Positions 3,267 through 64,000 of a stretch of 64,000 nt of DNA are shown in pieces. The stretch covers positions 1,178,001-1,242,000 of the forward strand of contig JBANDB010000001.1 in assembly GCA_037576215.1 (NCBI GenBank), given 5' to 3'. The position numbers and the translations under genes were made by a program. The stretch is from Armillaria gallica (Eukaryota > Basidiomycota > Agaricomycetes > Agaricales > Physalacriaceae). Positions within the stretch are counted from its first letter, which is position 1, and every line of letters starts with the position of its first letter. Under the pieces are notes generated by a model. It was given only the letters and a program-made list of their open reading frames with translations. It ran no database searches and was not told where the DNA came from.

Positions 3267-3369
3267 TATATCAACGTGAAGAACAGTCGCCGAATATTCA
3301 AGAGAAATCCGTTTTATTGCCCTGCGTATCGTGTAATACAAAATGCTAATTACAAGGACCAGAGGAACC

Positions 3370-4945
3370 ATGAATGTGACCGATGCAATGTTACACTTAG
3401 ACGCAGTGGCGCATTCAATACCAGAGCCTGTACTCCCACCCAATTCTTTGAATTCTCAGATATCTGGTATCCTTCGTGCAACGCGACCTTTCCTTGATAC
3501 CGACCGTGATTGGATACTCCAAAATATCGAGGTCCTCGAACTCGGAACAACAGCTCTCGGCGTACGACGCCACGCTGAAACGCATCGATGAAGTCAGATC
3601 GGAGATCCAGAGCCATCGCGATGCAGTTCACAAGTCCACGGCGGCCTATTCTTCAACACTAGCACCGATCTAACGTCTTCCTAGCGAAATATTTCGCGCT
3701 GTGTTTTGCGAGGTACAGAATACGCAGTGGTGCAACATGGGGTGGTTGGAATCAGAATCAGAATCAAAAGATTACAAGTGCTGGATTTTTCGCAGGGTCC
3801 ATGGAAGCTCAGCCATGTATGTGGTGCCTGGAGGGATATTATTTTATCCTATCCCCAGCTCTGATCACATATAGTCCTGCAATATTGGCCACCTCATCCT
3901 TGAACGGAGACGCTGCACCATACAGTATCTGCACCGCAAGCCATGATTCCTTGGTCGGCACAGCATCCTCTGGATATCGTGTTTGAACTTCAGGACGACT
4001 ACAAGCAGTTTGCGGCCGTCCAAGTCTTTCCCATGGTCCTCAAGATAACCTTGACTTTGTTGGAGCAGATGAAGCTGGTTCGCGAAAAGATCCCTTGTCT
4101 TGAATCTTTGACCATGAAAACTACGTTCATACCATACTCCAGCAGAAAGGAGCTGCCTGAAGGTATTTGAAGTGCGTTCATTGATGCTCCTCGCCTCCGC
4201 AAGGTCGTTTTACATCATACCCATGGGCTCGGTGATTTCATGTTTCCTCTTCATGTCACCCATCTGGCGACATATATGGGTAATGTTTCTAACCTTCAAG
4301 CCTATCGGTCTCTCGCGGAATACTATTTCGTTGACTATGAACATCCTGGTCTCGTTATTGATTTTCCTCATCCCATCCACCTTCCCAGTGTCTGACGTCT
4401 CTTTGTATCATCATCGCAACTACTTTCGTTTCCGCGCCTGCCTTCCTTAGACAATCTCATGATTTGTTCCATCAACGCATCTGACAGTCACGTACATGAC
4501 GTTATCTCGGTGATGAACGAGTTCATCTACCGTTTTCGTTGCTCCCTTACCAGTTTATCCATTCATAATCCCGTTTCATTCTATCAGGTCTTCATCTAAG
4601 ACTGTCTCTTGTTGATGGACCGTCTGGTGTCCCTAGAAATCGGACACCTTGAGGATGAGAATGCTATGTTCGATGCACTTGCTTCTATCGGATTCCTCCC
4701 AAATTTGCAGCATCTGTCACTGCAGATTCCGAGCTACATGGAGCCATCATTGTGGAACCAATTTCCCGTCATATGATCACATCACGAAGCCAATATCTTC
4801 GTTCGATCTGAATATCCTGTGGCAATTACGACGAGGGAGGAGAGAATTAATGAACATCTTGCGCCACTACGGTCACCTGGACTCCCCGTCGTTGTTTATT
4901 GGGCGAGATACTACGGCTCGATAACCCGTTTTGGAAAGTTTGAGT
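3370..4945 (+). pseudogene. Type-2 F-box-like pseudogene, copy C
   Basis: Begins MNVTDAMLHLDAVAHSIPE, matching the intact type-2 gene at 26848-28479. An indel near 3540 breaks the frame after NIEVLE. In the F-box itself an in-frame TAA interrupts LAPI-RLPSE (about 3670), where the paralogues have CGG. Further frameshifts follow, but family segments remain recognisable: HGSSAMYV from shifted sequence, SAQHPLDIVFEL near 3960 and REKIPCLESLTMKT near 4085. The similarity ends near 4945, matching the end of copy D. Clearly non-functional as an F-box protein. Confidence 0.85.
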
Positions 4946-14403: not shown

Positions 14404-14644
14404 ATGTTCAAGCGTGCAGCAGGTAGTTCACTGTTCAAACTTGTTACTTGTCGGCACAAATTATCGCGAACAAATCGCAAACTCCGACTGAAAGTCAATT
14501 TACGGTCCGACGATGCCTGGTATCTTTATCTTACAATCGATCTTCTACTGACTCCGAGGACGGATATCAGCGTGAAGAACAGTCGGCGAATATTCAAAAG
14601 AAGTACATTTTAAACTTACTACCTTGCGTATCATGTAACAGAAA

Positions 14645-16253
14645 ATGCTAATCATGAGAATCAGAGGAACCATGAATGCGACCGACGCAATGTTACACTT
14701 TGATGCAGTGGCGCGTTCAATACCAGAACCTGTTCTCCCACCCAAAGCTTTGAATTCTCAGATATCTGGCATTCTTCGTGCAACGCGACCTTTCCTCGAC
14801 ACTGACCGTGATTGGATACTCGAAAACCTCGAGGTTCTCGAACAGCAGATCCCGGTGTACGATGCCTTGCTCAAACGCATCGATGAAGTGAGATTGGACG
14901 TGCAACGCCATCGCGATGCTGTTCACAAGTCCATGGCAGCCTATTCATCCACACTAGCACCCATCCGGCGTCTTCCCAGGGAACTTTTTCGCGCTGTGTT
15001 CCGCGAGGTACAGATTTCGCTGTGGTACAACACGGAGGACCCGGAATCATACGACGAATTAAAGATTACCAAGTGCTGGTTTTTTCACAGGGTCCGTGGA
15101 AGCTCAGCCATGTATGCGGCGCCTGGAGAGATATTGTTTTATCCTATCCCCAGCTGTGGTCGCATATAGTCCTACAATATCATTGGACAAGCCATCCGAC
15201 GGAGACGCTGCATCATACAATATCTGCACTCCAAGCCATGATTCTTCGTTCGGCGCAGCATCCTCTCGATATCGTGTTTGAAGTCGAGGACAGCGACAAG
15301 CATGATGCGGCCTTCCAAGTCTTTCCCATGATCCTTGAGGAGTCATATCGATGGAGGACAGATACCCTTAACTTTGTTGGAGGAGATGAAGATGGTTCGC
15401 GAAAAGATTCCTTGTCTGGAATCTTTGACTATGAAAACTGCGTTCATACCATACCACGACAGAGAGGAGCTGCCTGAAGACATTCGAAGTGCGTTCATTG
15501 ATGCCCCTCGCCTTCAAAAGGTGGTTTTAGATTCGCGCAGTTATTCGAAAATTTCGTGTTTCCTCTTCATATCACCCATCTGGCGACATACATGAGCAAT
15601 GTTTCTAACCTTGAAGCGTATCAGTCTCTCGTGGAATGCCATTTCGTTGATATAAACATCTCGGTGTCATTATAGACATCCCTCCTCCCATCCACCTTCC
15701 CAATGTCCGACGCCTCTTTGTATATCACCGCATCTACTTTCGTATCTGCGCCTACCTTCCTTAGACAATCTCATGATTTGTTCCATCAGCGAGTTGATAG
15801 TGTACATGACACTATCTCGGTGATGAACGAGTTCGTCCACCGTTCACGCTGCTCCCTTACCAGCTTATCCATTCATAATTCGGTCTTATTCTATCAGGAC
15901 TTCATCGAAGACTGTCTCTTGTTCATGGACAGTCTGGTGTCCCTAGAAATTAGATCGTTCGGAAGGAAAATGATATGTTCGATGCGCTTGCTTCTATCGA
16001 ATTCCTCCCAAATTTGCAGCATCTGTCACTGCTGATTCCGACCTCCATAGAGCCTTCATTATGCGATCAACTTACCGATATGATCAGTTCACGAAGCCGA
16101 TATCTTCGTTCGATCCGGAATATCTGGTGGTCATCCCGACGATGTGGAGAGAGTTAATGAACATCTCGCCCCACTACAGCCACCTGAACTCTCCATGATT
16201 GTTCATTTGGAGAGATTACACCGATCCGATATCCTATTTTGGAAAGTTTAAAT
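14645..16253 (+). pseudogene. Type-2 F-box-like pseudogene, copy D
   Basis: The first about 140 codons are open and include MNATDAMLHF, FLDTDRDWILENLEVLEQQ and the F-box region STLAPIRRLPRELFRAVF. Near 15065 the frame shifts; the next part (GPWKLSHVCGAWRDIVLSYP, LRSAQHPLDIVFEV) is open in another frame until about 15355, where bases are missing after EESYRWR compared with the intact gene. It shifts again (IPCLESLTMKTAFIP) and again near 15540. At least three indels make it a pseudogene. The divergent partner is the copy-3 remnant 240 bp upstream; the MTF copy follows tail to tail. Confidence 0.8.
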
Positions 16254-16758
16254 GCGCTTAATACTTCGTTGGATGATTGTGTACTGTTACACTCTACATA
16301 TATCAGATGATCGAGTTTGGTGGCGCAATAGCCTGTACAGTTGGCGAAGGCGGGCTGAGACTTGGGCTTTTTTTGTTGAAGAACTTGATACCGGGAAAAC
16401 TTGGTATCAAAGAGTCAAACTTCGTGTCCTTGGATGTAGGTTCAATGAAAACGGAGTCGAACTCTAGGGCTCAGTATGTGATAAGTAGTCTCATATGATG
16501 GGTAAGAGGTGGCCGCATGCTTTCCAGGATTGTACGTCATGGAAGTCATACTATGCTATATCACTGTGATAGCATCGTGAACGTCATCACGTCCAGAGCG
16601 AGAACCCACAGAGATCGTCGAGGCGGCCAGGCGCGGCTGCATAGGCTATTTGAGGGGTTTCGCTACGTGGCCAATCTGTTCTTGATGGAGCGCTGAGCTG
16701 CGGAGAGATAGGAGCCGATGTATCCAATTTATATCCAGATGGGGCATATGGAGCACGC
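16254..16758. other. F-box/MTF intergenic spacer
   Basis: No gene is recognised. This is the 3'-to-3' spacer between the type-2 F-box pseudogene and the MTF gene. A related but diverged spacer lies at about 4945-5030 in block 1. Confidence 0.4.
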
Positions 16759-26847: not shown

Positions 26848-28479
26848 TTAGTCGAGCGCCAGGAGCCCAGTACTGCATGTTGCCGGCTCCCATGAAGTGG
26901 ACCAAAAATTTCCAAACAGCCTTCTGGGCCTCTCGTGGACGTTCGCGGAGGTGGAGACGATAAGTTGTAGTCCAGGCGGCCGTATCGGAGCAAGATGTTC
27001 GTCAATGCTCTCCACATCGGCACGAGTGAGACAAGAAATTCTGATTGAACGAAGATATTGGCCCCGCATACTGACCATGGAGGTAAGAGGGCCCCATAAT
27101 GAGGCTTGTATGGAAGTAGGTGTCCAAAGGGTCAGATGCTGCAGATTTGGGAGGAATTCGACGGAAGCAAGAGCATCTAAGATCAATTTTTCGTTCCAAA
27201 TGAGCCTAACGTCTAGGCTGTCCAGAGTGTCCATCAATAAGAGAGTGTCTTCGATGAATGCCTGATCCATAAAGTTGTCGGTGGTGAATTTGGTAAGGGA
27301 GCAACGAGAACGATAGATAAAATCGTTCACCATCGTGACAGCGGCATACGCATTCTTATCACCGGTCATGAGGTCATCTAAGGAAGGTAAACGCAAATGG
27401 GAAAGTATACTCGGTGACGATACCATTAGGCGCCGGACTTTAGGAAGACAGATGTGATGAGGGAGGAAGATGATGTCGTGACCGATGTTTTCGTCTGTTT
27501 CAAGATGACATTCTACGAGAGACCGGTAAACTTCAAGGTTAGAAACATTGTCCACGCATGCCGCCAAATGGGTGATATGATGAGGAAACATGAAATCGCC
27601 GAGATCATAGGTGCCATGTAAAGCCACCTTTCGAAGGCAGGGGGCTTCAACGAAGACACTTCGGACATCTTCGGGCAGCTCGTCCCTGCTGGATTGTGGT
27701 ATGCATGAAGTTTTCAAAGTCAAAGATTCCAGACAAGGGATCTTCCCGCGAACCACCTTCAACCGTTCCAACAGAGTCAAGGGTATCTGTAGATGCATGC
27801 TCCTCCACCGATATGACTCCCCGAGGATCACGTAAAGGGCTGGGACGGCCGCATATTCATTGGGGTCACCATCAAGTTCAAACACAATGTCGAGAGGATG
27901 CTGTGCCGAACGAGAAATCATGGCCTTGAGTGCAAGTGTATCTGGCTCCATTGGATGAATTGTCCGAAAGTGAAGGACAATATATGACCAGAGTCGAGGA
28001 TATGATAAAGCAATATCCCTCCAAGCACCGCATACATGGCTCAGTGCCCACGGACCCTGTAAAAAATCTAATGCTGGAGGTTCCTTCCACTCCCATGGTG
28101 TGCAGGTCCTGGGGTTGCCATCCCACCACTGCAAGAACTGTATCTCGCGAAACACGGTTCGAAGAACGTCAATGGGAAGACGTCGGATAGGTGCTAGTGC
28201 TGATGAATAGGCCGCCATGGACTTCTGAACTGTATCGCGACGGCGTTGCATCTCTGATCTGACTTCATCCATGCGGTCTAGCAAGGCATCGTACACCGAG
28301 ATCTGCTGTTGGAGATCCTCGATATTTTGGAGTATCCAATCACGGTCGGTATCAAGGAAGGAGCGCGTTGCACGAAGAATACCAGAGATCTGGGAATTCA
28401 GAGTGCTGGGTGGGAGTACAGGCTCTGGTGCGGAACGCGCTACTGCATCCAAGTGGAACATTGCATCCGTCGCATTCAT
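26848..28479 (-). CDS. Type-2 F-box-like protein, intact copy
   Basis: Single exon, 543 residues, the only uninterrupted type-2 gene in the window and the reference for copies B-E. It starts MNATDAMFHLDAVARSAPEP. A helical or coiled-coil-prone stretch (DLQQQISVYDALLDRMDEVR) precedes the F-box-like segment ALAPIRRLPIDVLRTVF at about residues 101-117, followed by GPWALSHVCGAWRDIALSYP. The rest is LRR-like, with ISRSAQHPLDIVFEL, RGKIPCLESLTLKTS and FLPNLQHLTLWTPTS. Expected role: Skp1-binding adaptor of an SCF ubiquitin ligase, substrate unknown. The last about 45 residues (after GLQLIVSTS) differ entirely from copy B, so the C terminus is not conserved. Confidence 0.85.
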   Translation of the reverse strand: MNATDAMFHLDAVARSAPEPVLPPSTLNSQISGILRATRSFLDTDRDWILQNIEDLQQQISVYDALLDRMDEVRSEMQRRRDTVQKSMAAYSSALAPIRRLPIDVLRTVFREIQFLQWWDGNPRTCTPWEWKEPPALDFLQGPWALSHVCGAWRDIALSYPRLWSYIVLHFRTIHPMEPDTLALKAMISRSAQHPLDIVFELDGDPNEYAAVPALYVILGESYRWRSMHLQIPLTLLERLKVVRGKIPCLESLTLKTSCIPQSSRDELPEDVRSVFVEAPCLRKVALHGTYDLGDFMFPHHITHLAACVDNVSNLEVYRSLVECHLETDENIGHDIIFLPHHICLPKVRRLMVSSPSILSHLRLPSLDDLMTGDKNAYAAVTMVNDFIYRSRCSLTKFTTDNFMDQAFIEDTLLLMDTLDSLDVRLIWNEKLILDALASVEFLPNLQHLTLWTPTSIQASLWGPLTSMVSMRGQYLRSIRISCLTRADVESIDEHLAPIRPPGLQLIVSTSANVHERPRRLFGNFWSTSWEPATCSTGLLALD

Positions 28480-28650
28480 GGCGCCTCTAAACCTCCTGTT
28501 TTAGTAACACTTTTGTCATATACGCAAGGCGGGACGTACTTCTCTTGGATATCGCAAAGATAAGTATCCTGCTAAGTTGGCATCCGTCGGAGTTGCGTCG
28601 GAGTCAACTTTTAGGTCGTGGGTTGTGATACTTATCATTGTATTGCGGCG
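28480..28650. promoter_or_regulatory. Type-2 F-box promoter flank
   Basis: Upstream of the intact type-2 gene. Words such as 'gtacttctcttggatat' and 'gttggcatccgtcggagttg' recur, diverged, upstream of copy B (about 34575-34640), so the promoter was copied with the gene. Confidence 0.45.
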
Positions 28651-32257: not shown

Positions 32258-32716
32258 GTTTGGAGAAGAACGCACTGCAGAAGTTTTTCAGAAATATATC
32301 ACAGCTAAGGTAAACTATGGTGCTGCAATAACAGAACAGCAAGCTAGGGGAGCAACACGAAAGAGATGGGGAGAAAGAGAAATGAAGGCAAGTCACGCGT
32401 AACGCGTTGATAACGCGACATCTGCGACATTTTCACGGCCTTCACGGCCCGTTCTTCCGTCTCGACGATGTCTTGACCGTGATGACCGACTTGTGACCGA
32501 CTGTAAGGCGCAACACTTGATTAATCCAGCATTCATTCAGTATGTTGCCCATAATTATCATAACGCTGAACGAGATAGGTACTAGAGGCTTTCCATCTGA
32601 GTCCGTCATCTTCCTTCTCTTTTGCTATTAAATTACTATGTGATAGAGACTGTAGCAGTACACGACCGTAGTGGTCCTGTGGTCCGTGCAACGAAGTATT
32701 ATCCAGATTGAAACAT

Positions 32717-34524
32717 TCAAAGACTGGATATCCCGTCGTTATTTCCACGCATGAAAACAATCAGTTGGAGTCCAGGTGGACGTAGTGGCGCAAGACGTTC
32801 GCTAATTCTTTCCACATCGTCGGAAACGGAACAGAAAATACTGATTGAACGAAGATATTGGCTGCGCGAACTGATCATAGCGGTAAAGGGATCCCAGAAC
32901 GAGGGCTCTATGGAAGAAAACAACTGCAGCGTCAGGTGCTGCAGATTTGGGAGGAATCCTATGGAAGCAAGAGCATTGAAGATAGTTTCCACGTCCCAAA
33001 TGAGCCCGATTTCCAGGCACACCAGAGTGTTCATCAACGAGAGACAGTCTTTGACGAAGACCTGATCGATGAAGACGAAACTATTGGTGGCTAATCGGGT
33101 AAGGGAGCAATGAGAACGGTAGATGAAGTCGTTTACCATCTTGACGGCGGTATGTACCTCGGGCGTGCGGTGACCATAAACTATGAGGTCGTCTAAGGAA
33201 GGTAGGCTCAGATGCGGAAGTATACGTGTTGACGATACAAAGAGGCGTCGGACATTGGGAAGGTGGAGATGATGAGGGGGGTCAGGACCTAGTCCTGCGT
33301 CAAGATGGCATTCTACGAGAGACTGATAACCTTCGAGGTCAGAAACATTGTCCACGCATGCCGCCAGATAGGTGATATGATGAGGAAACATGAAATCACC
33401 GAGATTATAAGTATCATGTGAAGCCATCTTTCGAAGGCACGGGGCTTCAACGAAGGCACTTCGGACATCTTCGGGCAGCTCCCATCTGCTGGACTGGGGT
33501 ATGTGCGAGGTTGTCATAGTCAAAGATTCCAGACAAGGGATCTTTCCGCGAACCACATTCAGCCGCTCCAACAAAGTCAAGGATATCTGTAGGTCCATGC
33601 TCCTCCACCGATATGACTCCTCGAGGATAACGGAAAAGGCTCGGAGTGCCGCAGACTCATCGTGGTTGAAACTAAGTTCAAACATGATGTCAAGAGGATG
33701 CTGTTACCCGCAGAACCAAAACCAACCGCCCGAGCCAGGGCAAATAACCACCACAGAGGTCCGTTGCTGTACTACACACACAACGCCACCATCCCCGAGT
33801 TGGAAAAAAGCAGTGTATTGAACGGAGGGACCAGGTGCAAGAGGGAGGAGGAAGCCTGAGCATTCGCCCCGCCACCGCGTCTTAGTAGATAGTGTACTTG
33901 TTGCGGTTAATCAAATGCAGAGTCCAAAAAAAAAAAAAAAAGAGGATGCTGTGCCGAACGGAAAATCATGGCTTTGAGTGCAAGTACCGTATGATATAGT
34001 GTTTCGGTTCGATGAATTGCCCGGAAGTGAAGGATTATATGGGACCAGAGCTGCGGATAGGATAAAACGATATCCCTCCAAGCACCGCATACATGACCGA
34101 GCTTCCATGGTCCCTGTGAAAAATCCAACACTTGAAAATCCTTCGGGGATCTTGATTCCTTCCTGTTCCACCACATCGAAAGTTGTATCTCGCGAAACAC
34201 AGCACGATAAATGTCGCTGGGAAGACGTCGGATAGGTGCTAGTGTTGAAGAATACACTGCCATGGACTTCTGAACTGTATCGCGACGGCGTTGCATCTCC
34301 AATCTCACTTCATCGATGCGGTCTAGCAAGGCATCGTACACAGAGATCTGCTGTTGGAGATCCTCTATATTTTGGAGTATCCGATCACGGTCGGTATCAA
34401 GGAATGGTCGTGTTGCACGAAGAATACCAGATATCTGGGAATTCAGAGCATTGGATGGGAGTACAGGCTCTGGTATTGAATGCGCCACTGCGTCTAAGTG
34501 TAACATTGCATCGGTCGCATTCAT
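32717..34524 (-). pseudogene. Type-2 F-box-like gene copy B, split by one insertion
   Basis: From the start at 34524 the frame is open through the F-box (STLAPIRRLPSDIYRAVF) to RSAQHPL. Then come a poly(A) tract and foreign DNA, and the gene resumes in frame at 33704 with AQHPLDIMFELSFNHDE and runs open to 32717. Apart from the insertion (33705-33939 plus a duplicated 13-bp site) no stop or frameshift is seen. The two halves together match the 543-residue intact gene except for a shorter, different C terminus (RPPGLQLIVFMRGNNDGISS). It was probably functional until the insertion. The first part could still make a truncated protein of about 205 residues that keeps the F-box. Confidence 0.9.
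33692..33952 (+). mobile_element. Poly(A)-tailed retroinsertion with 13-bp target-site duplication
   Basis: The direct repeat aagaggatgctgt occurs at 33692-33704 and 33940-33952. Between them lie about 235 bp ending in a run of about 16 A on the plus strand. The layout (5' boundary at the repeat, 3' poly(A), 13-bp duplication) is that of LINE-type target-primed reverse transcription. The body has no clear Pol III A or B box and no similarity elsewhere in the window. One plus-strand frame is open into the insert and stops near 33857, leaving about 65 nt before the tail, which would fit a 5'-truncated mRNA copy. It could equally be a SINE. Confidence 0.85.
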
Positions 34525-34544
34525 GGTATCTCCAATTCTCCTGA

Positions 34545-37500
34545 TTTAGGATTTCTTTTGTCAAACCACAAGATGTAACGCACTTCTCTTGAATATTCGG
34601 CTGCCCTTTAAATTGTCGCCCGTCAGAGTTGATAGGAGAGATGATCTGGATCGTCGCACCGTAAAGCCGGAACAAAAAGTTCAGTCGGAGTTCAAGTTCC
34701 CGCTTATAATCGTCACCACCCGGTTTGCACTACCGGCTGCAAAATTCATGAATCTGGGGACAGGCGTCTATATTAACGCATCCACTAATCCATAGATTTA
34801 CACACTATACCAGTCCCGGCGGCAGAATGCGGCAAAAGCCAAGCAGATGCGCAATCGCACTGGGTGCCTACTAGTACTTACATATAACTAAGTAAGGCCG
34901 GCAAGCGGCAAGGCCCGCTACCTTGACATCACACGAACACGGGATTCCCCGACTAGAAAGGATACAATCGGGCAAGACTTTGCTTCTCAACTGTGGCTGG
35001 ACGCGGGGAAAAAGTTCGCTCGGCGGCAGCTGCGCCGCCGCCAGCTCACATTTTCCCTCGCGCCCATTCCTTAGAGCTTTTAAATGCTATGAAGCATAGG
35101 ATTCATAGCTTCCATGGCTAGCGGCATAAACACTAAGTGTGAGGCATTTATAGGTAGTATCGCTCTGACCACCACAATACTTCTACGGTGAGCACATGAA
35201 GATGGGAAAGACGACAAGAAATGCATGTACCTCGATGACCATACCAGAATCGATGACGGTGTATACAATACTGGGCGAGTGAGCGTGACTGAGCCACTGG
35301 GAGATTAAACCATCAACAGTATTAGAAATGGTGGTTTTGCGGCTAGCAATTTGTTGTATCTGGGTGACATGGTGCGACTCTTCAGGGCGTCAGAGTAGTT
35401 ATCGTATGTAAGGCTGTTGTCACTTCGATTCTGCGGTATTAGCGTATTAAGGATAGCGACAGCCATATATACCTTCGTGAAGAGCCGTGACCGTTCTGCT
35501 AGAGGTGGCATGCGACTGGGAGTTGGTGTGGCACTCCTCGATGCATCGAAGACTTGAGTAAAGTCGTCAGATAGCTGGGGGGAGCGTCAGAACGCCACTG
35601 TTCACATTACTGGATTATGGGAGATTACCTGTGCGAATCCGCGATAGGAACACTGCCTCGACATCGTGACTTGACTCTGAGAGTGGTCTCCGGCGAGTCT
35701 GCCAGGTGGAGATCTATCCCCAAATTTCTCCTGGGCGCATCTCTCAGTCTCTTCCTCTACCCTTTAAAAGATCTAGTGAATATTTTGGACAGAAAACTAG
35801 ATATTGAATGTAAAATACACACCTTTTCGAGAGATTCTGGACAAGCCTCCACAAACGATGCTCGAAGACATTCACAAGACAACATACTAGAAGCACGGCG
35901 GCAAATGAGTCAAAGTCAGGGACTCGAATGGCCCGTCTGCTCTGCTAAGAGGTTTGCGGGTCAACGAGTGATACAGTGGCACACAGAACGGGATTAAACG
36001 ACTCAAACAGACCGGCAAGCACTACTGACGACACTATCTCACCATCGAAACGTCTTTCGTCCTTCTGAACTGGTTGTATTGGCAATAGATACATTGTGAG
36101 TGCTGACAGTAGCAACCTCCGTTAAAGCAAGGTATGCCGGGGACGATATTGCGATGTCGAAACCGTGCGTGCCCTTTTTGTGAATGTAGTGCCGCAGATG
36201 GAACTTGAGAGAGATTTCTGGAAGGACTGATGTCAAGGAATTGACCGAATACTGAAGACGGGCAGCATACCTATACCAAAGAACATTTTAGAGCTAATAT
36301 TCCATGATGCTCAATGTAAATATAGTTGACGCCATAGACTGAACGTACAGCCATTGCCGTGACTGGTATTCCATATATCCTGGAGAACCAGTGAACACAA
36401 TTCCACAAAGTACATAGTCAAAGAGGCCTCAAGCACGAAGGCTATCTTCACAGACTACACAGTCTGAGAGTTCGTTCCTGTACCATCCAGCACCCTCTCC
36501 ACCCGAAGACTCGATGCAATGAACTTGAGCTATTGCCTTCGACCGAATAAGGTCAACCGCTCGAATTCCGCATTCACGACACAGAGCAGATACGAATGTT
36601 TGTCGACCTAGGGCATATACCATACTCAACGTACTCAATCGGTTTGGTGTACAGCCGCTGAAGACGCTGCTCGATGCTTGTTCCGCTGCACACCAGCAAC
36701 AAAGAAAGGGGTGAAGCAGTCCATGTATAGCGCAAGTTTTCCCGATGATGTTCGAGGACACAACACAGGCAACGAAGAAGGTATGAGGATATACATACGC
36801 GCTCTGACATACTTGCACAACATCCAAGCACTATGACCCACTTTTTCCCTGACAAACGGACCTGCCAGCAAATGTTCCATAATACGCGAAACGCGTGCGA
36901 CGTCGAGGATGATCCTGGCAGGTAGTACCAGCCACTAGTCCATGACCGAACAAATTTGCAATGACAATGCCTTCAGAAGCAGACGGAATAAAGGGCGGAG
37001 AGGTTAGCCGACACGCACTGTCGTATGTCTAACAGATTACTTAGTAACCATCGATGCGTTCGTAACCGAGCTTGAGATGTGTCTAGAAGGAGATAAGTAC
37101 CAGTGTAATGATACTTACACGGACTCACACTGATGTTCACAGCACACGACTGAAACCAGTCGAAACCCAGAACAACAACATCGGTAGGGAGAACCTCCTT
37201 CACCTCCAATTCCAGTGTACAAGAATGGACGAACAAACCCCTACCGACATGTACCTTAGACAGCCTCCCACCATGAACGTGTACGACAGCAGAATAGCGA
37301 GAAGTTGGCCATTCCAGCGCGATGGTACAGCTATATCACTCGTTCGCTATGATGCACGACGTTAACGTCGCCATAAAGAAATACAATGCCGTCAGGCACT
37401 AATTTACGGCTAAAATAGGCAGCCAAGTCAATGGTTAACGGCACAGCATCGGCACCTGCGACCGCAGACCATTACAATATCTCACGCCACATACCACATA

Positions 37501-50554: not shown

Positions 50555-52692
50555 ATGATGGCGATTTGGAAACGCATACGCTCTGTCTTTTTGACATCCT
50601 GGACCAGTAAAGATCCATCTCCTGACGAAACACCTATACTTGACGAAAACCCCAACACCACCGTGTCGTCCGAGCCGCAAGAGCCGCACAGTACTAGGTC
50701 TGCTTCAGAAGATGCTGGTCCTGCTTTGGAGGCGACACCAGACTCGTCGTCCTGCTTGCAGCCAGAATCACCATCAAATGTGGATTCGCAGACTGATGCC
50801 ACGGAAGAGCAACCATCTGAAGATACTTCGGGTGATTCCTCTGAGCTTCGTAGCGATGATGACGATCCACGGCCTCCGGAGGAAAGTCGATCCGCAAACT
50901 ACTTGCATCCAGAACCACCGTCCATTGTGGATTTGCAGTCTAATGCCTCGGAAGAACAACCATCTGAAGATACTTCGGGTGATTCTTCTGTGTTTCATGG
51001 TAATGATAACGATCCATGGCCTCCGGAGGTAAGTCAAACCGCAAACAAGCAGGAGGGACATTGATAAAACATTTCCAGGACATCTCTCTTCCTAAAGTCA
51101 CCATCTCCGCCTTCACTGAGACGGGTCAAGCGAAATCGTCGATCGTCGTTCCCAAGCAACGGGCATACACCGGGAGAAAGCCTGTGATATCATCTCGCCT
51201 CGCTGACATTCCCTGTGCTACCCTCGGCGTTCAGGGCCTCTTGGATCAACTCAACTCTACGCTCGGAACATCATACACCCTAGACGATCCATCCCTCTCT
51301 GCCCTTCTTGAAGACTGCATTGCAGACAACTATGACCTTGGCATGGCATATGGCTGCCTCCGCAGGACGTGGTATATCCATGACTGGAGTGCTATACGAG
51401 ATGCATTGCGCAGATTTGAAGAGGAGGACTGGGAGATTCGACAGAAAGCCTTCGTTGGTAATCGGATTCAAGTCTTCGATGAGGTAGATTTACCGCCTCG
51501 ACGTGTTTGGGATTTGTACAGCAATCGGGTGATGCCATGGTGGACTCAGATCTACCAGCCTCAGCCGATCTCGCATGCATGGGTGGATGCAAAGGATCGT
51601 GTCGATGTGTGGACGCCCATCAACGGATACAAATGGCCCGTTCCCATACCGAAAGACACCAGCCTCGACCTTGTCCGCATTGAGATGTTCAACATCAATC
51701 TCGGAGCGGAGTGTATGTGGTTGGATGTTCTCTGTTTGAGACAGGTGGGTGGACCGGAGGAGGATTTGCGTGCGGAAGAGTGGAAGTTGGATGTGCCCAC
51801 CATCGGACACCTGTATCATGGGGCTGATGTGGTGATTTACTTGGGTGGGCTGGGTCGGCCTTTGAGGTTGAAGGACGGCGACTTGGATAACGATCGGTGT
51901 TGGTTTAGACGTGCGTGGACAGTGCAGGAGGTTGGGGATAGCAGGGTGATTGCTGGGGACATGCCGGATGGACCAATGCATGCCAAGCATAGGAAAAGAA
52001 AGTATGAGACCGAGCTGCTGACTAGGTTTCACAACCAGCGGCGGTCTATTCGGGGCATCAAGTATTCGGTGTTTGGGGCACTGGAGGAGATGCAGCACCG
52101 GGTATCGACAAACCCGGTGGACAAAGTTGCGGGACTGGCATTTCTTATGCGGTCCGAAATGATACCAGCATACTACGAGGGCGAGTCCCTAGAGGACGCA
52201 TGGACAGCACTCATGAATCTGTCAGCTGGAGAGTCTCGGGCAGCGTTGTTCTCCTTTTATCCTGAACCGGGCAATGCGGGTGCGAAATGGAGACCGTCGT
52301 GGGACCAGCTTATGACGAAGCCTCTGCCCAGATACTCTGACAGGGTTGACATGGTCGACGTTGATTGGAACGAGGAGATGAATGAAGATTCATGTCATGC
52401 ACACTGCATTGAAAAGGGGCTGGTGCGGGGGTTGGGTGTCGTGGAAGAGGGTGATCGATATGGAGAGTTGATTGTTGAAGGCAAGGATGGGACAGAGCAT
52501 GTATTCAACATCATGGCCGCCCACGAGTACCCAATTCCCGAAGGCACATACACATTGATCTGCACTCATACAGCGTCGTATAAAGATTGGGTTATCGGGC
52601 GAAGACTGCCAGGAGAAAGGTTTGAGAAGATGTCGGTGTTGCGACTATGCGATGAAGAAGAATGGGGGGCGGTTAAAAGATCTGCATATTAG
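50555..52692 (+). CDS. HET-domain (heterokaryon incompatibility) protein, gene 1
   Basis: HET-domain proteins trigger growth arrest or cell death when genetically unlike hyphae fuse. Exon 1 (50555-51028) starts MMAIWKRIRSVFLTSW and is a Ser/Asp/Glu/Pro-rich linker containing two 49-residue tandem repeats (EQPSEDTSGDSS, DPRPPE / DPWPPE). A 50-nt intron (51029-51078) leads to exon 2 (51079-52692), starting DISLPKVTISAF; total about 695 residues. The HET signature lies in exon 2: PISHAW (about 51565), GAECMWLDVLCLRQ (about 51704) and CWFRRAWTVQEV (about 51899). NPVDKVAGLAFLM follows. No N-terminal signalling domain such as NACHT or TIR is visible. The whole frame is open and CpG-normal. The intron position is identical in gene 2 at 61 kb. 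Confidence 0.9.
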
Positions 52693-56580: not shown

Positions 56581-58075
56581 GAACTCGTATCTGCATATAG
56601 TGGCTACGAAAATTTACCGATACGTACACGTGACTGATTACCAATGAACACGCGAGCCGCGAGCTCGACAATCAACAATGCCATGACTAGATGCTCATAT
56701 CGCAAGCAATCTGAATGAACTATGCCACGACCGGCCAATGCACTCGTCCTGCTTATCCATGGCCTTGTGGAAATAGCCGATACCTTTCTTCAATGTCTCC
56801 GTTCCCGCAAACAGTCAAGATATGTCATCCACAGTGCCGTGGATGCCTAGGGTGAGATGCCATCTTTCCGTGGGGGAACAAAGATGATGTCAGGTTTTGT
56901 GGGTGCTTCGACACATTTAAGATAGAAGATAGCATACAAATAAGTGCATCTTGACCAGTTATCGCAGTTTCGGATCGTGCCCAAGTCAATCTGCGCGTTG
57001 AGGTTGCCGACCAACCTGGATAACAACTATGGGCAGATATCAGTGGAGCGCTTTGCCATTTGTATCGTACTGCGGACGACCCGCACGTCCAACCGTTTGA
57101 ATTGCATCCTGGAAAACAGGTCGACCCATGTAGATCTGGGTTCGTTCTATAATGACTATATGGGCTAGCAGTTTGACACGAAGCAGTACGCAGGAGGACC
57201 TGAACGTGAACAGCTCCTCCACCAGGGAACAATCTTCCCGCGACATGATATTGAAATTAAAGGGAAAGAGAAAACAGCGAGTTTGACGTTGTTGGCTTCT
57301 TCAGTCAGAATGTCCCGTGTAGCATCGACGAACGGATTAATCGTCTCCTTCTCCACATGCCGTGTCCCTCTCAGAAATTCCGCCGTTGTTGCTGCGCAAG
57401 CACACGAAAACCAGAGTTAACCTCACCGAGGACTTCGCTCGTCACTAGTACTGCTTGTTCACCTGACTCCGATGAAATATTGCGGGGCTCGGTCGGAACG
57501 GGAAGTCCTTTTAGTTCGGCTATGAGTTCTGTAAAGATGACCCTCTCTGCGAGCTTTAGAATCGTCTGGTCCGGTCAACGTCGGCCAGCTCTGCTCGGAG
57601 ACCTCATATATTGGCTCGCTCCGAACGTGGCGAAGCTTGATGGACGAACTTTCATCCGACGGTCTCCAGCCCTTCGCAACTTCAACGTCGACGCGGTTTC
57701 CAAACAATTTCATCGTGATATGGAAGCGGTGATAGTCGACGAGCTCCATGAATGGGTTTTGCGCGGAGGCGAGGGTGAAGAAGTTGTAGGCAGCAGTAAC
57801 TTGGCCTGGGCACACTGTCTCGGATTCAAGGGATTTTAAAGATTCGCCATCGATGACGAGTATCTCTACGCCAACTGTTGTTGGTTCGGTTGCAGCCTAG
57901 TCGTTCCCACCCTCTTCGTCGTCGGACCATTTCTGATTCTAGACCCCTCTTCATCCTCTTCCTTTTGTCCCTCTTCATTGAATGTCATAGTCGATAATTC
58001 TCTTCGACTTGTTCCCCAGTTCTCAGATATCAATGACCAGTAAAGAATGTGAAATCGTTTTTGTCGCGCCATTAG
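56580..58075 (-). pseudogene. BRR2-derived pseudogene with both cassette remnants
   Basis: Reading the minus strand from 58070: acidic N-terminal part (EEGQKEEDEEGSRIRNGPTT), the helical region (VTAAYNFFTLASAQNPFMEL near 57790), then KETINPFVDATRDILTEEA (57300-57355), SREDCSLVEELF, LLAHIVIIERTQIYMGR and the helicase motif VI region DAIQTVGRAGRPQYDTNGKA (57045-57110). Further on are second-cassette pieces (LKKGIGYFHKAMDKQDECIG near 56780). The order is BRR2-like, but large parts including Walker A are missing and stops are frequent. This is the most collinear BRR2 remnant in the window. Confidence 0.75.
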
Positions 58076-58479: not shown

Positions 58480-59245
58480 GCAAGTGAAGGCGGATCAGGA
58501 GATCATGACATTCGACCTCGTCAATATCAAAGACGCGTTCAACATCCTGAAGAGCTCGTTGAATAAGAGCTCAAAGATGGGTAGAAGGTGTCCGGGAGGA
58601 TATGAGAGCGGGAGAACGAGGGAGGAGAGAAAGTCGGTAGCCCGTCGTTTAGATACACCCGTTCGTTGTGGTCTCGATCCTATGCGTCTACAGAAAGGTG
58701 CTGAAAGATAGAGAGATGTAATCGGCGCAAAATTTATAGCCCTCGGAAAATCGAAAATCTGGGAAAACGTTCAGAAGTCTGGAAGAGTTTCCCATTGCCA
58801 TAATAGACTTACGACTGCCTATATTTTGTGCGAACAGGGACCCAAGCATCCAGGGAATATGATCCTCCCTCCGTCGGACCATGCCGTCTTGATTTCCAGT
58901 CGTGAACTCGAGATTAACGTGAAAGATGCGCAGAAGATGAGGAGAAAAATGGATTTGAGACAGTCAGACAGTCGTCAGGTTGACGTATCGCATACTTTCT
59001 GCATCCCAAAAGCTATGCTACCTCCCCGAGCAAACGACGAAACTCCCTTCGTCCGGCGATCCCCCGCTAGTTCGCAAAGAATCCCGTCTATGTCCTTTTC
59101 GCGCACAGCAACTTCAACATTGACATGCTCATTCGCATGAGCTTGCCGCACCAGACAATGGCACGAACTTTGTCGAAACAGGGTTGGGCTCGGAGTCAAG
59201 AATGAAGAGTATGGAGAAGCATTGTCGGCAGCTGGCACTGAGGGA
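58480..59245 (-). pseudogene. BRR2-derived N-terminal fragment
   Basis: The minus strand at about 59040-59150 reads HANEHVNVEVAVREKDIDGI followed by LCELAGDRRTKG, the pre-helicase helical region also seen, degraded, at 63420-63520. The remainder to 58480 is unreadable but carries sequence shared with about 43540-43760 ('gaccggatcctttagatctg' at 58242 and 43563). Confidence 0.55.
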
Positions 59246-59469: not shown

Positions 59470-60445
59470 CTTGACCATCTCTGGATCCGTTTATCAGCTT
59501 CCTAGATGTTTGGCCGTTGCCTCACCAGTCCTGATGAACATATAGAGCGATGAGGCTCGAAGCTTTCGGTTTATGAGTCGCTGACATGCTGGGTGCGGCC
59601 GGTGCTGATATTTGGTTAGCGTTCTTCGAAGAATCTTTCTATATACCGGTCCATCTCATTCCGCATGAAAAGTCGATTTTAGCTATTGGACGGTGAGAAT
59701 GTGAACATATAGAGGGTCACTGTGCTAATAAATATAGAGTAGCCGGCAACACCGTTTTCTGAGCGCGCGTTACTCAATCATGATTCATCTGGTCGTAAAC
59801 TCCCTTCTTGTATCATGAAGAGACTGAACTTCGACCCGCCCTTTCTCCCGAGATATCGTTGACCGGCGCCCATACAACACGCGATTTTGATTGCAGGCTC
59901 TGAGGCTTGTGTTTCTATCATTAGCGTGCTCGAGAAGGAGGGAATGGATACTGGTGGCGTGTGGGCGTCCGATAAGACAGTACATGCGCGCATAATGTTT
60001 CTGGGCTTTTGTTTTTGACGCAGACTGTACAGGCTATTGTGCCAAACGTTACTGGTTAGCTATTCTGACACTATACATTCTCACTAGGTATGATTCTTGT
60101 TAGTTACACCGCTACCTTGATCTAATTTCGACCTCGCTAGCATCCCATCACCGTTTACGCACTTGATGGACACACCATCCAACCCGGCTCCTCGTCAGTA
60201 CAGGATAACCCACCCTCATTCGTGCGGGCGGAGCCTGGGGTGTCGTATCTTTACCGGTCGAAAAGCGCAGTTCGAATTCGTCAGTCCTGTCCGTACGGAG
60301 TATGAAACCCGTTGTGGGACTGAAAGGCCAAATACAAGATAATAAGATGGAGATAGGAAGCGCGCCTATCTCGAGTCGTGCTTACTGATATTTAAACCTA
60401 TACGCGCCGTCCTTGACAAAATTCATTCCATTCGCTAATCCTTGA
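59470..60445 (+). pseudogene. MTF pseudogene (head-to-head with BRR2 debris)
   Basis: Fairly long but degraded copy on the plus strand: presequence-side intron and 'cctagatgtttggccg' (matching the DVWSS exon start), 'ccggtccatctcattccgca' (matching PVHLIPH), 'gcccatacaacacgcgattt' (matching APIQHAI), then the C-terminal exon ('gcacttgatggacacaccat', 'ccaccctcattcgtgcggg', 'aaagcgcagttcgaattcg'). Stops and frameshifts occur throughout; the DWWNGVK part is lost. Confidence 0.75.
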
Positions 60446-60544
60446 CATAATACACTTGTTCCCAGTTTCCAAGTTCAAGTTCACCCGGGAACAAGCTCAG
60501 CCTGCTATGAGTTCGGGAGGACGAAACGTCCATCATGTTGTTCA

Positions 60545-60675
60545 CATCATTACGGACCGAACCTCTTGGACCTGAACCTAAGGTTCAGGTTCAAGGTTCG
60601 GAGCGGTGGGAGGCGAACCTCGAGGTCCAGGTTCGAGGTTCAGGCAAATGTGCCCAAACCTGGACCGAACCTGAC
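60545..60675. repeat. AGGTTC/GAACCT direct and inverted repeat cluster
   Basis: Many copies of 'aggttc' and its complement 'gaacct' in about 130 bp, including the palindromic 'cctgaacctaaggttcagg' and the direct series 'ggttcaggttcaaggttcgg'. It could fold into hairpins. It lies about 400 bp upstream of HET gene 2. It is translatable in one frame (60535-60837) but looks like a repeat, not a gene. Confidence 0.7.
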
Positions 60676-61025
60676 CCCGGCCAGACTAATATTACTGCCT
60701 ATCTCAAGGCAAACAGCTCTTTGTTTAGAACTCCCTTGACTATAAGAGTTTTCCAGCGCAACCAAGCCCTCCTTTCTCGCAAGTTCATCGAACCCTGGAC
60801 AGTCATCCCGAGGCACCTCCCTGCCTTCATTCTCTAGCACGTTTCGCTCTACCCTCTCCGAGCGTTGATCCTGTCATCAACACTGCATATCCTTCGAAGC
60901 TTGGAAAAGCAGAAACTGGTACGTATCGTTGATACCTCTTGTTGTGAGTACTCACTACAACAAGATTAGCTGTAGAGTCCAAGGTCCTTATACCACTCAC
61001 TTTTTGGCTGTTTTTTGGAAGTGTT

Positions 61026-62811
61026 ATGTCTGGTGACTATGACAAAGAGCCGCGGCCTCAGGCTCCGGACTTTCCGGAGGTAAGTCAATCAACAAACAAC
61101 TGAGGGGAGATTAAAAATATATTTCCAGGATATCTCTTTGCGTGAAGTCACCATCTCCGCCTTTACTGACATGGGCCAGCCGGAATCATCAATCATTGTT
61201 CCGTTGCAACAGTCATACACCGGCAGAAAGCCGGTGATATCATCCCACCTTGCTGACACTCCCTGTGCTGCCTTTGATGTTTCTGACCTCTTGGACATAC
61301 TCAATGACAAACTCAGAACATCATACTCCCTGGACACTCCATCACTCTCCTCTCTTCTCCAAGACTGCATCAACAAGAACTACAACTTTGGCACAGTGTA
61401 TGGTCTCCTCCGCCACATATGGTACACCAATAACTGGAGCACTGTACAAGATAAGCTTCACAAGTGGGAAGAGGAGGACCAGGAGATGCGACAAAAAGCA
61501 CTGGTTGGTAAACAGATTATCAATCCACACTTACCACCTCGATGTGTCTGGGATCTATACAGCAATCGGGTGGTACCATGGTGGAGCATGGGTATCTCTG
61601 TTAGTAACCAGGACTGGGGTGACCTGTGTCAGCCAATATCACATGCATGGATGGAAGAGAAGGACCATGTCAATCTGTGGACACCTATCAATGGATATGA
61701 TTGGCCTGTTCCCATCCCAAAAGATGCCAACCTTGACCTTATCCACATTGAGATGCTCAATCTTGGAGCAGAGTATGCATGGTTAGATGTCCTCTGTTTG
61801 AGACAGGCACATGGACAAGGGGAGCATTTGCACACAGAAGAGTGGAAGCTGGATGTGCCCACTATTGGAGCAGTGTATCAATGTTCCATCCCAGTAGTGT
61901 GTTACTTGAGTGGGCTGGGGCTGCCTTTGAGTTTGAAGGAGGGTGACTTGGATAGTGATCAATGTTGGTTTAGACGTGCATGGACACTACAGGAGGTTGG
62001 CAGGAGAAGAGTGATTGCTGGGGACACTCCAGATGGACCGCTACACAAGTCAAAGGATAAGGATGGGGACTATGAGACTGAGTTGCTGACTAGGTTTCAT
62101 AAGCAGCTGCAGTCTATGAATTACATTTCATATTGTAATGTGTCTGCCAGTGCAGTGCTAAGGAGCATGCAGGATCGGGTGTCTACCAACCCAGTGGACA
62201 AAGTTGCAGGGCTGACATTTTCTCTGATGTCCAAGAGGATACCAGCATATGATGAGACCCAGTCTCTTGAGGAGGCATGGACAGAGCTGGTAAATACAAT
62301 GGATGTGGAAATTCAGGGGAAGTTGTTTTATCAGTATCCTGAACCTGGAAATGCAGGCACAAAGTGGAGACCATCATGGGATCAGGTTATGACATAGTCT
62401 TTGCTCATAGATAACATTGGCTCCAACATCAAAGTTGAGCAGAATGAGATGAATGAAGACTGGTCTGATACAGAGTGTATTGAAACAGGGTTGGTTCAAG
62501 GGTTAGCTGCTGTGGAAAGGAATGATCAACATGGAAAGTTGATTGTTAAAGACAAAGATGGGATAGAACTCATATTCAACATCATGGTCATCCACAAGCA
62601 CCTGATATCTGATGACACATACACACTGATTCACCATGAGTCCAGGACCAGGACTGGGTCCCCATCACCTTATTGGGTCATTGGACAAAGACTGCTAAGG
62701 AAAAAGTTTGAGAAAGTGTCCACAATTAAAATTATTGAAAAACTCAGATGGAGAGAGATATCAAAGTTGTGGAGGCTGCAGACCAAACAGTGTCAATATA
62801 TTCTGGTTTGA
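61026..62811 (+). pseudogene. HET-domain gene 2, interrupted by a premature stop
   Basis: Paralogue of HET gene 1. Exon 1 (61026-61079) encodes a short start, MSGDYDKEPRPQAPDFPE; a 49-nt intron (61080-61128) sits at the same place as in gene 1; exon 2 starts DISLREVTISAF. The HET signatures are kept: PISHAW, GAEYAWLDVLCLRQ and CWFRRAWTLQEV. After SWDQVMT (62395-62397) there is a TAG where gene 1 has a Lys codon. The same frame then stays open to 62811 with gene-1-like sequence (NIMVIHKHL, YWVIGQRLL). Either a C-terminally truncated but HET-complete protein or an early pseudogene. CpG is almost absent from 62178 onward. It lacks the long acidic linker of gene 1. Confidence 0.8.
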
Positions 62812-63225
62812 GTTAGTAAGTACACATGCAATATGCTAAAAATTTGTGAAAGAGCTGAGAAGATGGCAATCCTGCAGCACATTGCTGGTTAAGAAAGAAG
62901 AAAGAGGAAATTAAAGAGTGAAAAGTTGTAGTAAAATAATATTTAGTATACAAGTAGGTACAGTAGTCTACAATGTACTTTACATGTGCATTCATTTGCT
63001 ATCATGCAAATAGTGAAACATCTTACAAGTATAAGAGTTGTTTCAATTTGTATACATAGAGGAAAGTGGCAACATGCTGGTAATTGGAGAGAGAGCTGCA
63101 AACAATCCAATGAGGCACACATAATTGTTTTATGTGACAGACATGTTCATCATGAAGTAAAGGAATTTTATCAATAATGATGAGGCAAACAAGATTCCCA
63201 CAACTGCTTCACATTGGCCTAAGTA
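62812..63225. other. CpG-free 3' flank of HET gene 2
   Basis: No gene. Part matches the 3' flank of HET gene 1 (53505-53630). The stretch contains no CG dinucleotide. Confidence 0.6.
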
Positions 63226-63935
63226 TCAAGGAATCATCAGCAACAATATCAAGACACAGTTTAGGAAACATACCTTTCCACCGCCAGTAGTTGGTGCTAA
63301 ACGCAATGAGGTAGAACTTGTTTTAAGCTTGGGAGCAGGTGACCACCCTGACTGAAGGCTATATTCGAGTGTGGCTGACTTGGGTACCTCAGGTTTGCCT
63401 TCATTAATGTCCATAGTGTCTGACAATCCCCCGCTAGTCTGCAAAGAATCCAGCTCATGCTCCTTTTTGCGCATGGCAACTTAATGTTGCTCCACACGAG
63501 CTTGTTGCCCTAGATAATGGTGCTGCAGTTTTTAAGGAATTTTGTCATGATATGGAAAATCTAGTAGTCGAAGAGCTCCATGAGCTGGGTGTCAGTCACA
63601 AAAGTTGGTCAATGTTCAACTAGGTGTCAAGAATGGAGAATACAGAGTAGGCAACCAGCACTGAACTCAGGGTCCTTGTCGACTTTGGATTTTGCGGATC
63701 TGGCACCTCTGCACCAACTTGGCCACCATCTTCAGGTGTAGCCCTGCCATCACATGCTTGTGGGTTAACTCATCTCTATTTTCAAACTCTTCTTTGCAAC
63801 TCATCATCAGTCTCTGAATCCTTCTGTTCCATATTGTGATCATGCCATAGCCATTACTCTTCTTTGACAGACTGACAAATTGAGAGAACTGTTCACTGCT
63901 TACTAGCATCGCAGGGTTGGGGATGGGTGTCAATG
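63226..63935 (-). pseudogene. BRR2-derived N-terminal fragment at the window end
   Basis: The minus strand from 63933: ITIWNRRIQRLMMSCKEEFE then NRDEL (acidic start region), a remnant of the helical region, then PEVPKSATLEYS, SQGGHLLPSLK and LRLAPTTGGGK, a degraded Walker A (APTGAGK in BRR2), followed by a splice-donor-like GGTATG near 63270. Frameshifts separate the pieces. At 63900-63950 MTF-side intergenic sequence begins again ('tcgcagggttggggatgggt', compare 43979), suggesting another head-to-head MTF copy beyond the window. Confidence 0.65.
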
Positions 63936-64000
63936 CCAGGTTTGAGTAGGATGGTGGTCAGGACAGTCACACCAGCAGCATGTTCTCAAAAATATTCACT

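Follow-up and report, generated by a model that had tools for sequence, protein, structure and literature searches.

A CpG-free run at the end of a HET gene in Armillaria gallica, read as a probable scar of gene-body-type CpG methylation on protein-selected genes

Mosaic gene-body methylation has been predicted from bimodal CpG observed/expected (O/E) ratios, with mean modes of 0.54 and 0.85 in the mosaic cluster (PMC6336885); the groups named for that cluster in the source include no fungi, whose gene bodies it calls ultra-low to weak. Gene-body methylation is described as largely lost in fungi, perhaps since coding DNA was mutated by it (PMC13297926), and according to a review most fungi are without it, although exceptions exist; a table of the same review gives 4.34% 5mC by HPLC for Armillaria bulbosa (PMC7862722). 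In Coprinopsis, multicopy genes carrying 5mC derivatives are known (PMC8889193), and for the NLRs of Arabidopsis an epigenetic partition of the family has been noted (PMC11093987). Among the full-text matches listed in a search confined mostly to papers outside subscription, no title or abstract opening dealt with CpG-depleted HET genes or with gene-body methylation in Armillaria.

The HET family of Armillaria gallica described here resembles mosaic gene-body methylation as portrayed in PMC6336885 in its two CpG O/E classes, most copies lying at 0.12-0.39 or 0.71-1.03, and in its loss of silent-site CpGs. It differs from the mosaic cluster of that source in that one multicopy mushroom family is split and that the depletion often reaches beyond the 3' end. 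As in the gene-body ('mosaic') methylation of animals and plants, the promoter side is mostly spared. The likeness to the Coprinopsis multicopy genes lies in the mushroom host and in marks derived, here presumably, from 5mC; those genes are described as not expressed (PMC8889193), whereas the HET decay appears to be filtered by protein selection and the promoters are mostly spared. The CpG decay of Basidiomycota transposons as reported in PMC4352252 has the same signature of CpG turned to TpG/CpA, but here host genes are affected and the decay depends on codon consequence.

The window analysed is the whole 64,000-base stretch C1:1178001-1242000 of an 86-Mb assembly. A dinucleotide scan of the window found CG starting at 62176 and then at 63282, with none in 62178..63281, a run of 1104 bases (not assigned to a strand) for which an earlier, sequence-only reading had already given the same limits. 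The window total of 3567 CG in 64000 bases predicts about 61 for a run of this length, and the runner-up gaps measure 408 bases (61567-61975) and 217 bases. The depletion that this reading implied is also apparent in 1-kb bins: CpG O/E is 0.79-1.20 in the first 61 bins versus 0.27, 0.05 and 0.21 in the last three, in which TpG and CpA O/E stand at 1.39-1.65.

The void, which from the letters had been seen to cover the end of HET gene 2 and its flank, spans the final third of the gene and some 470 bases 3' of it, and it is the deepest portion of a CpG-poor tract of about 14.8 kb (contig C1, about 1,239.0-1,253.8 kb; CpG O/E in 500-base steps). The left end of this block, at 61051..64000 of the window (no strand), takes in the gene 2 body, its 3' flank and DNA beyond. 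Depletion had been said to grade from 61 kb towards the window end; a 5'-to-3' gradient was indeed seen, but the window holds just the first 3 kb of the tract, which runs on for about 12 kb beyond. Since two of 20 random 500-base samples of the genome fell below CpG O/E 0.5 (0.22 and 0.42, with a TpG/CpA excess in the 0.22 sample only), CpG-poor DNA is a minority of this genome. Transposon domains were sought in nine ORFs of four CpG-poor stretches (three from the gene 2 block), and just a weak F-box hit was obtained.

HET gene 2 (g2; 61026..62811, + strand) was modelled by eye, with an ATG at 61026, exon 1 to 61079, an intron at 61080-61128 (GT...AG) and exon 2 at 61129-62811; the ORFs 61138-62397 and 62401-62811 share one frame. 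The first of these ORFs matches PF06985 (E 4.4e-5) and the second gives no PF06985 match. Gene 2 aligns to gene 1 along its length and carries an in-frame TAG at 62395-62397; it is probably a pseudogene today. At this position gene 1, the close relative C1_1341 and many further copies read AAG, a codon set apart from the TAG by an A-to-T transversion, and CpG decay therefore did not produce the stop. On the spared promoter side, which comprises the 5' flank of gene 2 with its first exon (60001..61050, + strand), CpG is near normal, the O/E being 0.82 over the 800 bases that precede the protein match. Upstream of gene 2, nine AGGTTC/GAACCT motifs stand within about 110 bases (60559-60672). As a common boundary element these repeats were rejected, given that the 5' flank of gene 2 has nine of them and every other tested HET flank 0-2.

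HET gene 1 (g1; 51016..52692, + strand; 558 aa), the CpG-normal paralogue, holds 93 CpGs at O/E 0.83, and its description as rich in CG was accurate; it had been placed next to the void, whereas it lies 10 kb away. Gene-1 CGs had been noted to read CA or TG in gene 2, and the 92 aligned CpGs bear this out (CA 40, TG 20, CG 10, other 22), as does the change of ACG to ACA ahead of the stop. The proposed CpG bias of the C-to-T/G-to-A decay is likewise supported by the counts, with transitions at 30 of 82 CpG positions of gene 2, as against 55 of 471 outside CpG. C1_1341, the nearest relative of gene 2 among the copies sampled, shares 88% identity with it; of the 149 transitions that separate the two, just 16 fall at CpG, so most of the CpG loss precedes their divergence.

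With the gene 1 protein as query, the HET family was matched at no fewer than 78 places (78 of 520 first-look candidates scored). The analysis covered 36 copies, including the fragment C1_1275frag. They were not sampled at random: 17 derive from the window and from loci picked mostly among hits with gene 2's own end, and 19 were hand-picked from the 78-place list while their CpG content was still unseen. Within this one family, the CpG O/E values fell into two groups, 0-0.39 (13 copies) and 0.58-1.03 (23 copies). Two classes, as known from coding sequences under mosaic methylation, are therefore present among the 36 copies, with C6_587 (0.58) in between.

Transversions alone were used for the tree, so that CpG decay should leave its shape unaffected. 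On it, the 13 CpG-poor copies fell in five all-poor clades, namely clade A (g2, C1_1341, C1_1275frag, C1_1273, C1_1371), clade B (L036, L039, L041, L048), clade C (L042, L044), clade D (L046) and clade E (L050); parsimony required four state changes, or five if CpG loss is irreversible. That CpG decay itself had produced this clustering in the tree was rejected for clade A, which is recovered from transversions alone (98%, 95%). The ratio of CpG to other transitions was 1.7-3.6 in the 13 poor copies and 0.5-1.6 in ten of the 11 rich copies shown; given that C6_587, counted as rich at O/E 0.58, reached 3.9 and so matched the poor copies, the split is imperfectly clean. Among the 120 matches listed of 1307, those closest to the gene 1 protein stood at 95% and, in Armillaria nabsnona, at 84%, and the named ones belonged to Armillaria, Desarmillaria and Guyanagaster. 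The protein of L041 has relatives at 72-83% (protein level) in A. nabsnona, gallica, borealis, solidipes, ostoyae and fumosa. The flanks of C6_587 (L021:3050-4760) are CpG-normal, and this copy is perhaps at an early stage of the same decay.

To assess the consequence of CpG loss for the codons, we took the 33 CpGs shared by 60% or more of the CpG-rich copies and tallied the states found at them in the 13 poor copies. Where the C is at codon position 2 (NCG), the 74 states were CA 64, TG 0, CG 2 and other 8; where it is at position 3 (NNC followed by G), the 115 states were TG 76, CA 12, CG 7 and other 20; and at CGN arginine codons (C at position 1), the 225 states were CG 125, CA 58, TG 16 and other 26. 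The poor copies thus kept 125/225 arginine-type CpGs versus 9/189 silent-type ones. When losses were counted site by clade at the 60% cut-off, NCG had become NCA 29 times and NTG 0 times, and NNC before G had become NNT 35 times, with the G changed to A in 5. Pooled in this way, silent versus other directions numbered 95:10, 64:5, 21:3, 19:1 and 10:1 at cut-offs of 50, 60, 70, 75 and 80%. Strand bias cannot explain this direction, because the favoured product switches with the codon position. In the rich copies, the few lost sites gave CA 30/TG 3 at NCG and TG 36/CA 6 at position 3, the direction expected for selected genes. Gene 2 alone showed 10 silent versus 2 other changes at 60% and 2 versus 1 at 75%, on few sites; it retains 6 of 18 conserved arginine-type CpGs, and the copies of clades B-E retain 7-14 of 18 (7 in L048, which has four stops).

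Five poor copies (C1_1371, L039, L041, L042 and L046) had no internal stop in the aligned reading. Four of the copies were simulated as unselected, with half of the differences to a relative placed on the copy, and the chance of remaining free of stops was P 0.010, 0.008, 0.003 and <0.0005. One stop each was found in g2, L036, L044 and L050, three in C1_1341 and four in L048, and C1_1273 and C1_1275frag are broken. Breakage is not special to the poor copies, since CpG-rich copies such as C10_456, C6_587, L049 and L053 bear stops too. The dN/dS ratio was 0.44-0.77 in nine pairs of poor copies, a relaxed range, versus 0.21-0.54 in six clean rich pairs; four frameshift-disturbed rich pairs gave 0.61-0.79. 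The fragment C1_1275frag was omitted from dN/dS as well as from the profiles and flanks below.

Flanks were taken as 800 bases from the ends of the protein match, for gene 2 including the short first exon on the 5' side and the last 45 coding bases on the 3' side, and the rich set consisted of the 12 of 23 copies with 10-kb loci. CpG O/E was higher in the 5' than in the 3' flank in 12/12 poor copies (medians 0.92 and 0.11) versus 3/12 rich copies (0.96 and 1.06), although the difference over 800 bases was small in C1_1371, L041 and C1_1341. Copies inside a clade are not independent, and with one vote per clade the asymmetry had p 0.06. The 5' flank was at 0.80 or above in 10 of the 12 poor copies, the exceptions being C1_1341 (0.41) and L046 (0.48), so that a depleted body is joined to a CpG-normal 5' end as in mosaic methylation. 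Inside the gene, the poor/rich ratio of silent-type CpGs was 0.47 and 0.52 within nt 0-300, 0.13 in 300-450 and 0.01-0.06 further on; in L046 and C1_1273 the 5' coding end is emptied too. The gradient as a by-product of protein constraint was rejected, because it is present for silent-type CpGs.

The genome was also searched for DNA methylation machinery, and PF00145 was matched at five places. Locus L029 matches PDB chain 7r76_A (entry name Rad8) with an E of 4.7e-79 and is a DNMT5 relative, 7r76 being, we take it, Cryptococcus Dnmt5. By their motifs, L031 may be DNMT2-like, and L032/L033 are candidates for a DNMT1-type enzyme. A PDB search with one L032 ORF gave nothing, and a DNMT1-RFD search found no match in the genome and none in the control genomes either. 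The three hits of a Tet_JBP search of the genome were all under the cut-off. The DNMT5-like gene is present on two contigs (L029, C9:3880866-3881372; L030, C18:67597-68103) with 3507 identical bases, which may reflect a recent duplication, a shared haplotype or assembly redundancy.

Collectively, we favour the reading that the void is the scar of long-lasting gene-body-type CpG methylation followed by deamination on protein-selected HET genes with spared promoters, and on the sequence evidence we regard this as reasonably probable. That methylation and deamination lie behind the CpG loss is very probable: CpG transitions exceed those in other contexts, TpG and CpA are in excess, and relatives of CpG methyltransferases are present in the genome. 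Action on genes under protein selection appears nearly as secure, and gene-body-type targeting seems somewhat more likely than the edge of a heterochromatin block. A subset of HET genes would have been CpG-methylated in the line of descent, probably in four or five separate lineages. The methylated unit would start a few hundred bases inside the HET gene and cover the body and usually downstream DNA, the promoter and the first ~300 coding bases being mostly left unmethylated. Silent CpGs would then have turned almost completely into TpG or CpA, while selection kept the arginine CGN codons or slowed their replacement, and both effects are seen as patterns in the poor copies. Some copies, including gene 2, have gained stops and lost arginine CpGs too, presumably at a later time. 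The trigger would be the transcription unit rather than neighbouring heterochromatin.

The strongest competing explanation is that a methylated, repeat-rich block downstream spreads through the 3' end and body of the gene and halts at the open promoter, the border genes being passengers kept functional by their spared promoters; we consider this a serious possibility, though not a probable one. The block at C1 1,239-1,253.8 kb harbours a dispersed repeat of ~1.37 kb besides a decayed F-box copy, the copy C8_2828 has a CpG-normal body yet a CpG-poor 3' flank (0.27), and in Pleurotus much genic methylation is thought, according to PMC6627472, to come from spreading out of transposons. Such an edge is difficult to reconcile with two of the 12 poor copies in which the depletion is limited to the gene, C1_1371 (3' flank 0.98) and L041 (gene plus <400 bases downstream), both CpG-normal on either side, and random insertion next to repeats would not be expected to give the same orientation in five clades. 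The 5' flanks of clade B align across 775-820 bases, and the 3' flanks of L036, L039 and L048, with CpG O/E of 0.06, 0.03 and 0.00, align with one another over just 49-69 bases, so inheritance of the 3'-flank depletion as one repeat was rejected for this clade; L041 and L048 do share ~390 bases, and 128-136 bases of L036 can be aligned with L050 and L044. Either the gene and promoter moved and new downstream DNA became CpG-poor, or copies survive only in such places.

The sequence-only reading had invoked premeiotic silencing of duplicated DNA, as in the RIP of Neurospora or the MIP of Ascobolus, as the cause of the gene 2 decay. This fits poorly, and we consider it unlikely. As described in PMC13297926 and PMC4352252, those processes likewise act on cytosines of repeated DNA; the transitions here are CpG-biased, gene 2 is duplicated and now bears a stop, and the CpG signatures of some basidiomycete transposons are ascribed to a MIP-like process (PMC4352252). 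Changes blind to codon consequence would be expected, and the HET copies do not have them, as the silent direction (64:5) and the unequal retention of arginine-type and silent-type CpGs demonstrate. Duplicates as such are not targeted either, most examined copies (23 of 36, at CpG O/E of at least 0.58) being untouched; most of the depletion predates the split of gene 2 from C1_1341, and five poor copies read through without an internal stop when aligned. The same codon-consequence bias and the age of the depletion also speak against a one-off inactivation of gene 2.

F-box-like copies served as a control. A CpG-normal ORF of this family (26848..28479, - strand), which has no Pfam hit itself but has window relatives with one, provided the reading frame for the decayed copy in the gene 2 block. 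That copy kept 2/24 arginine-type and 4/28 silent-type CpGs (2/17 and 0/15 at a stricter cut-off), which does fit the codon-blind loss expected of RIP or MIP; a second decayed copy, C1b, kept 8/24 and 11/29 (arginine p 0.05 versus HET). Silent versus other directions were 12:10 in the block copy and 8:8 in C1b at the looser cut-off, and 11:3 (p 0.60 versus HET) and 6:3 at the stricter one. As a control for direction the F-box copies are thus weak, the result depending on the cut-off; the arginine-CpG loss of the block copy holds at both. Neither decayed copy looks selected, and parts of the block may therefore be subject to a RIP/MIP-like process.

Removal of CpG by codon or DNA-content selection, or derivation of the block from a CpG-poor genome, in either case without methylation, has nothing more than the low CpG itself in its favour and is very improbable, since the lost silent CpGs are mostly deamination products (CA in 64 of 72 lost at NCG), intergenic flanks are depleted as well, the best protein matches are from Armillaria and its relatives, and the poor copies nest in the same family tree.

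To return to gene-body-type methylation, a stronger form of it can be put forward only tentatively: a true gene-body methylation system may split a self/non-self family into methylated and unmethylated parts, with a mark that is tied to the transcription unit, travels with the gene, re-forms over unrelated downstream DNA and lasts as long as protein lineages common to several Armillaria species. The mutational cost of gene-body methylation has apparently been borne for long by genes that kept their proteins, and the CpG-normal paralogues offer internal controls in the same genome. Long reads could be used to test for methylation of living gene bodies in mushrooms and for an epigenetic partition of self/non-self families.

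Several minor observations concern the surroundings of gene 2. Short CpG-poor fragments 3' of the gene (63418-63583) resemble CpG-normal DNA at 59051-59099 and 57693-57751 at 75-76%; since these look-alikes sit 4-6 kb upstream, the local duplication took in more than the HET gene. The F-box-like family has several CpG-normal copies in the 64-kb window (3361-4869, 14621-16289, 26848-28553, 32513-34596) and is a second expanded family beside HET. The ~1.37-kb repeat within the CpG-poor block (L010:3541-4867, C1:1245541-1246868) recurs near full length in at least 39 more places at 85-93% (best 40 of 281 first-look candidates scored); its CpG O/E of 0.46-0.66 is less depleted than much of its surroundings, and it is thus perhaps a younger insertion. 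A block of about 21 kb at L014-L016 (C1:1,329-1,350.5 kb), with CpG O/E mostly intermediate at ~0.3-0.65, is related to the gene 2 block, with the order of its HET and F-box parts swapped.
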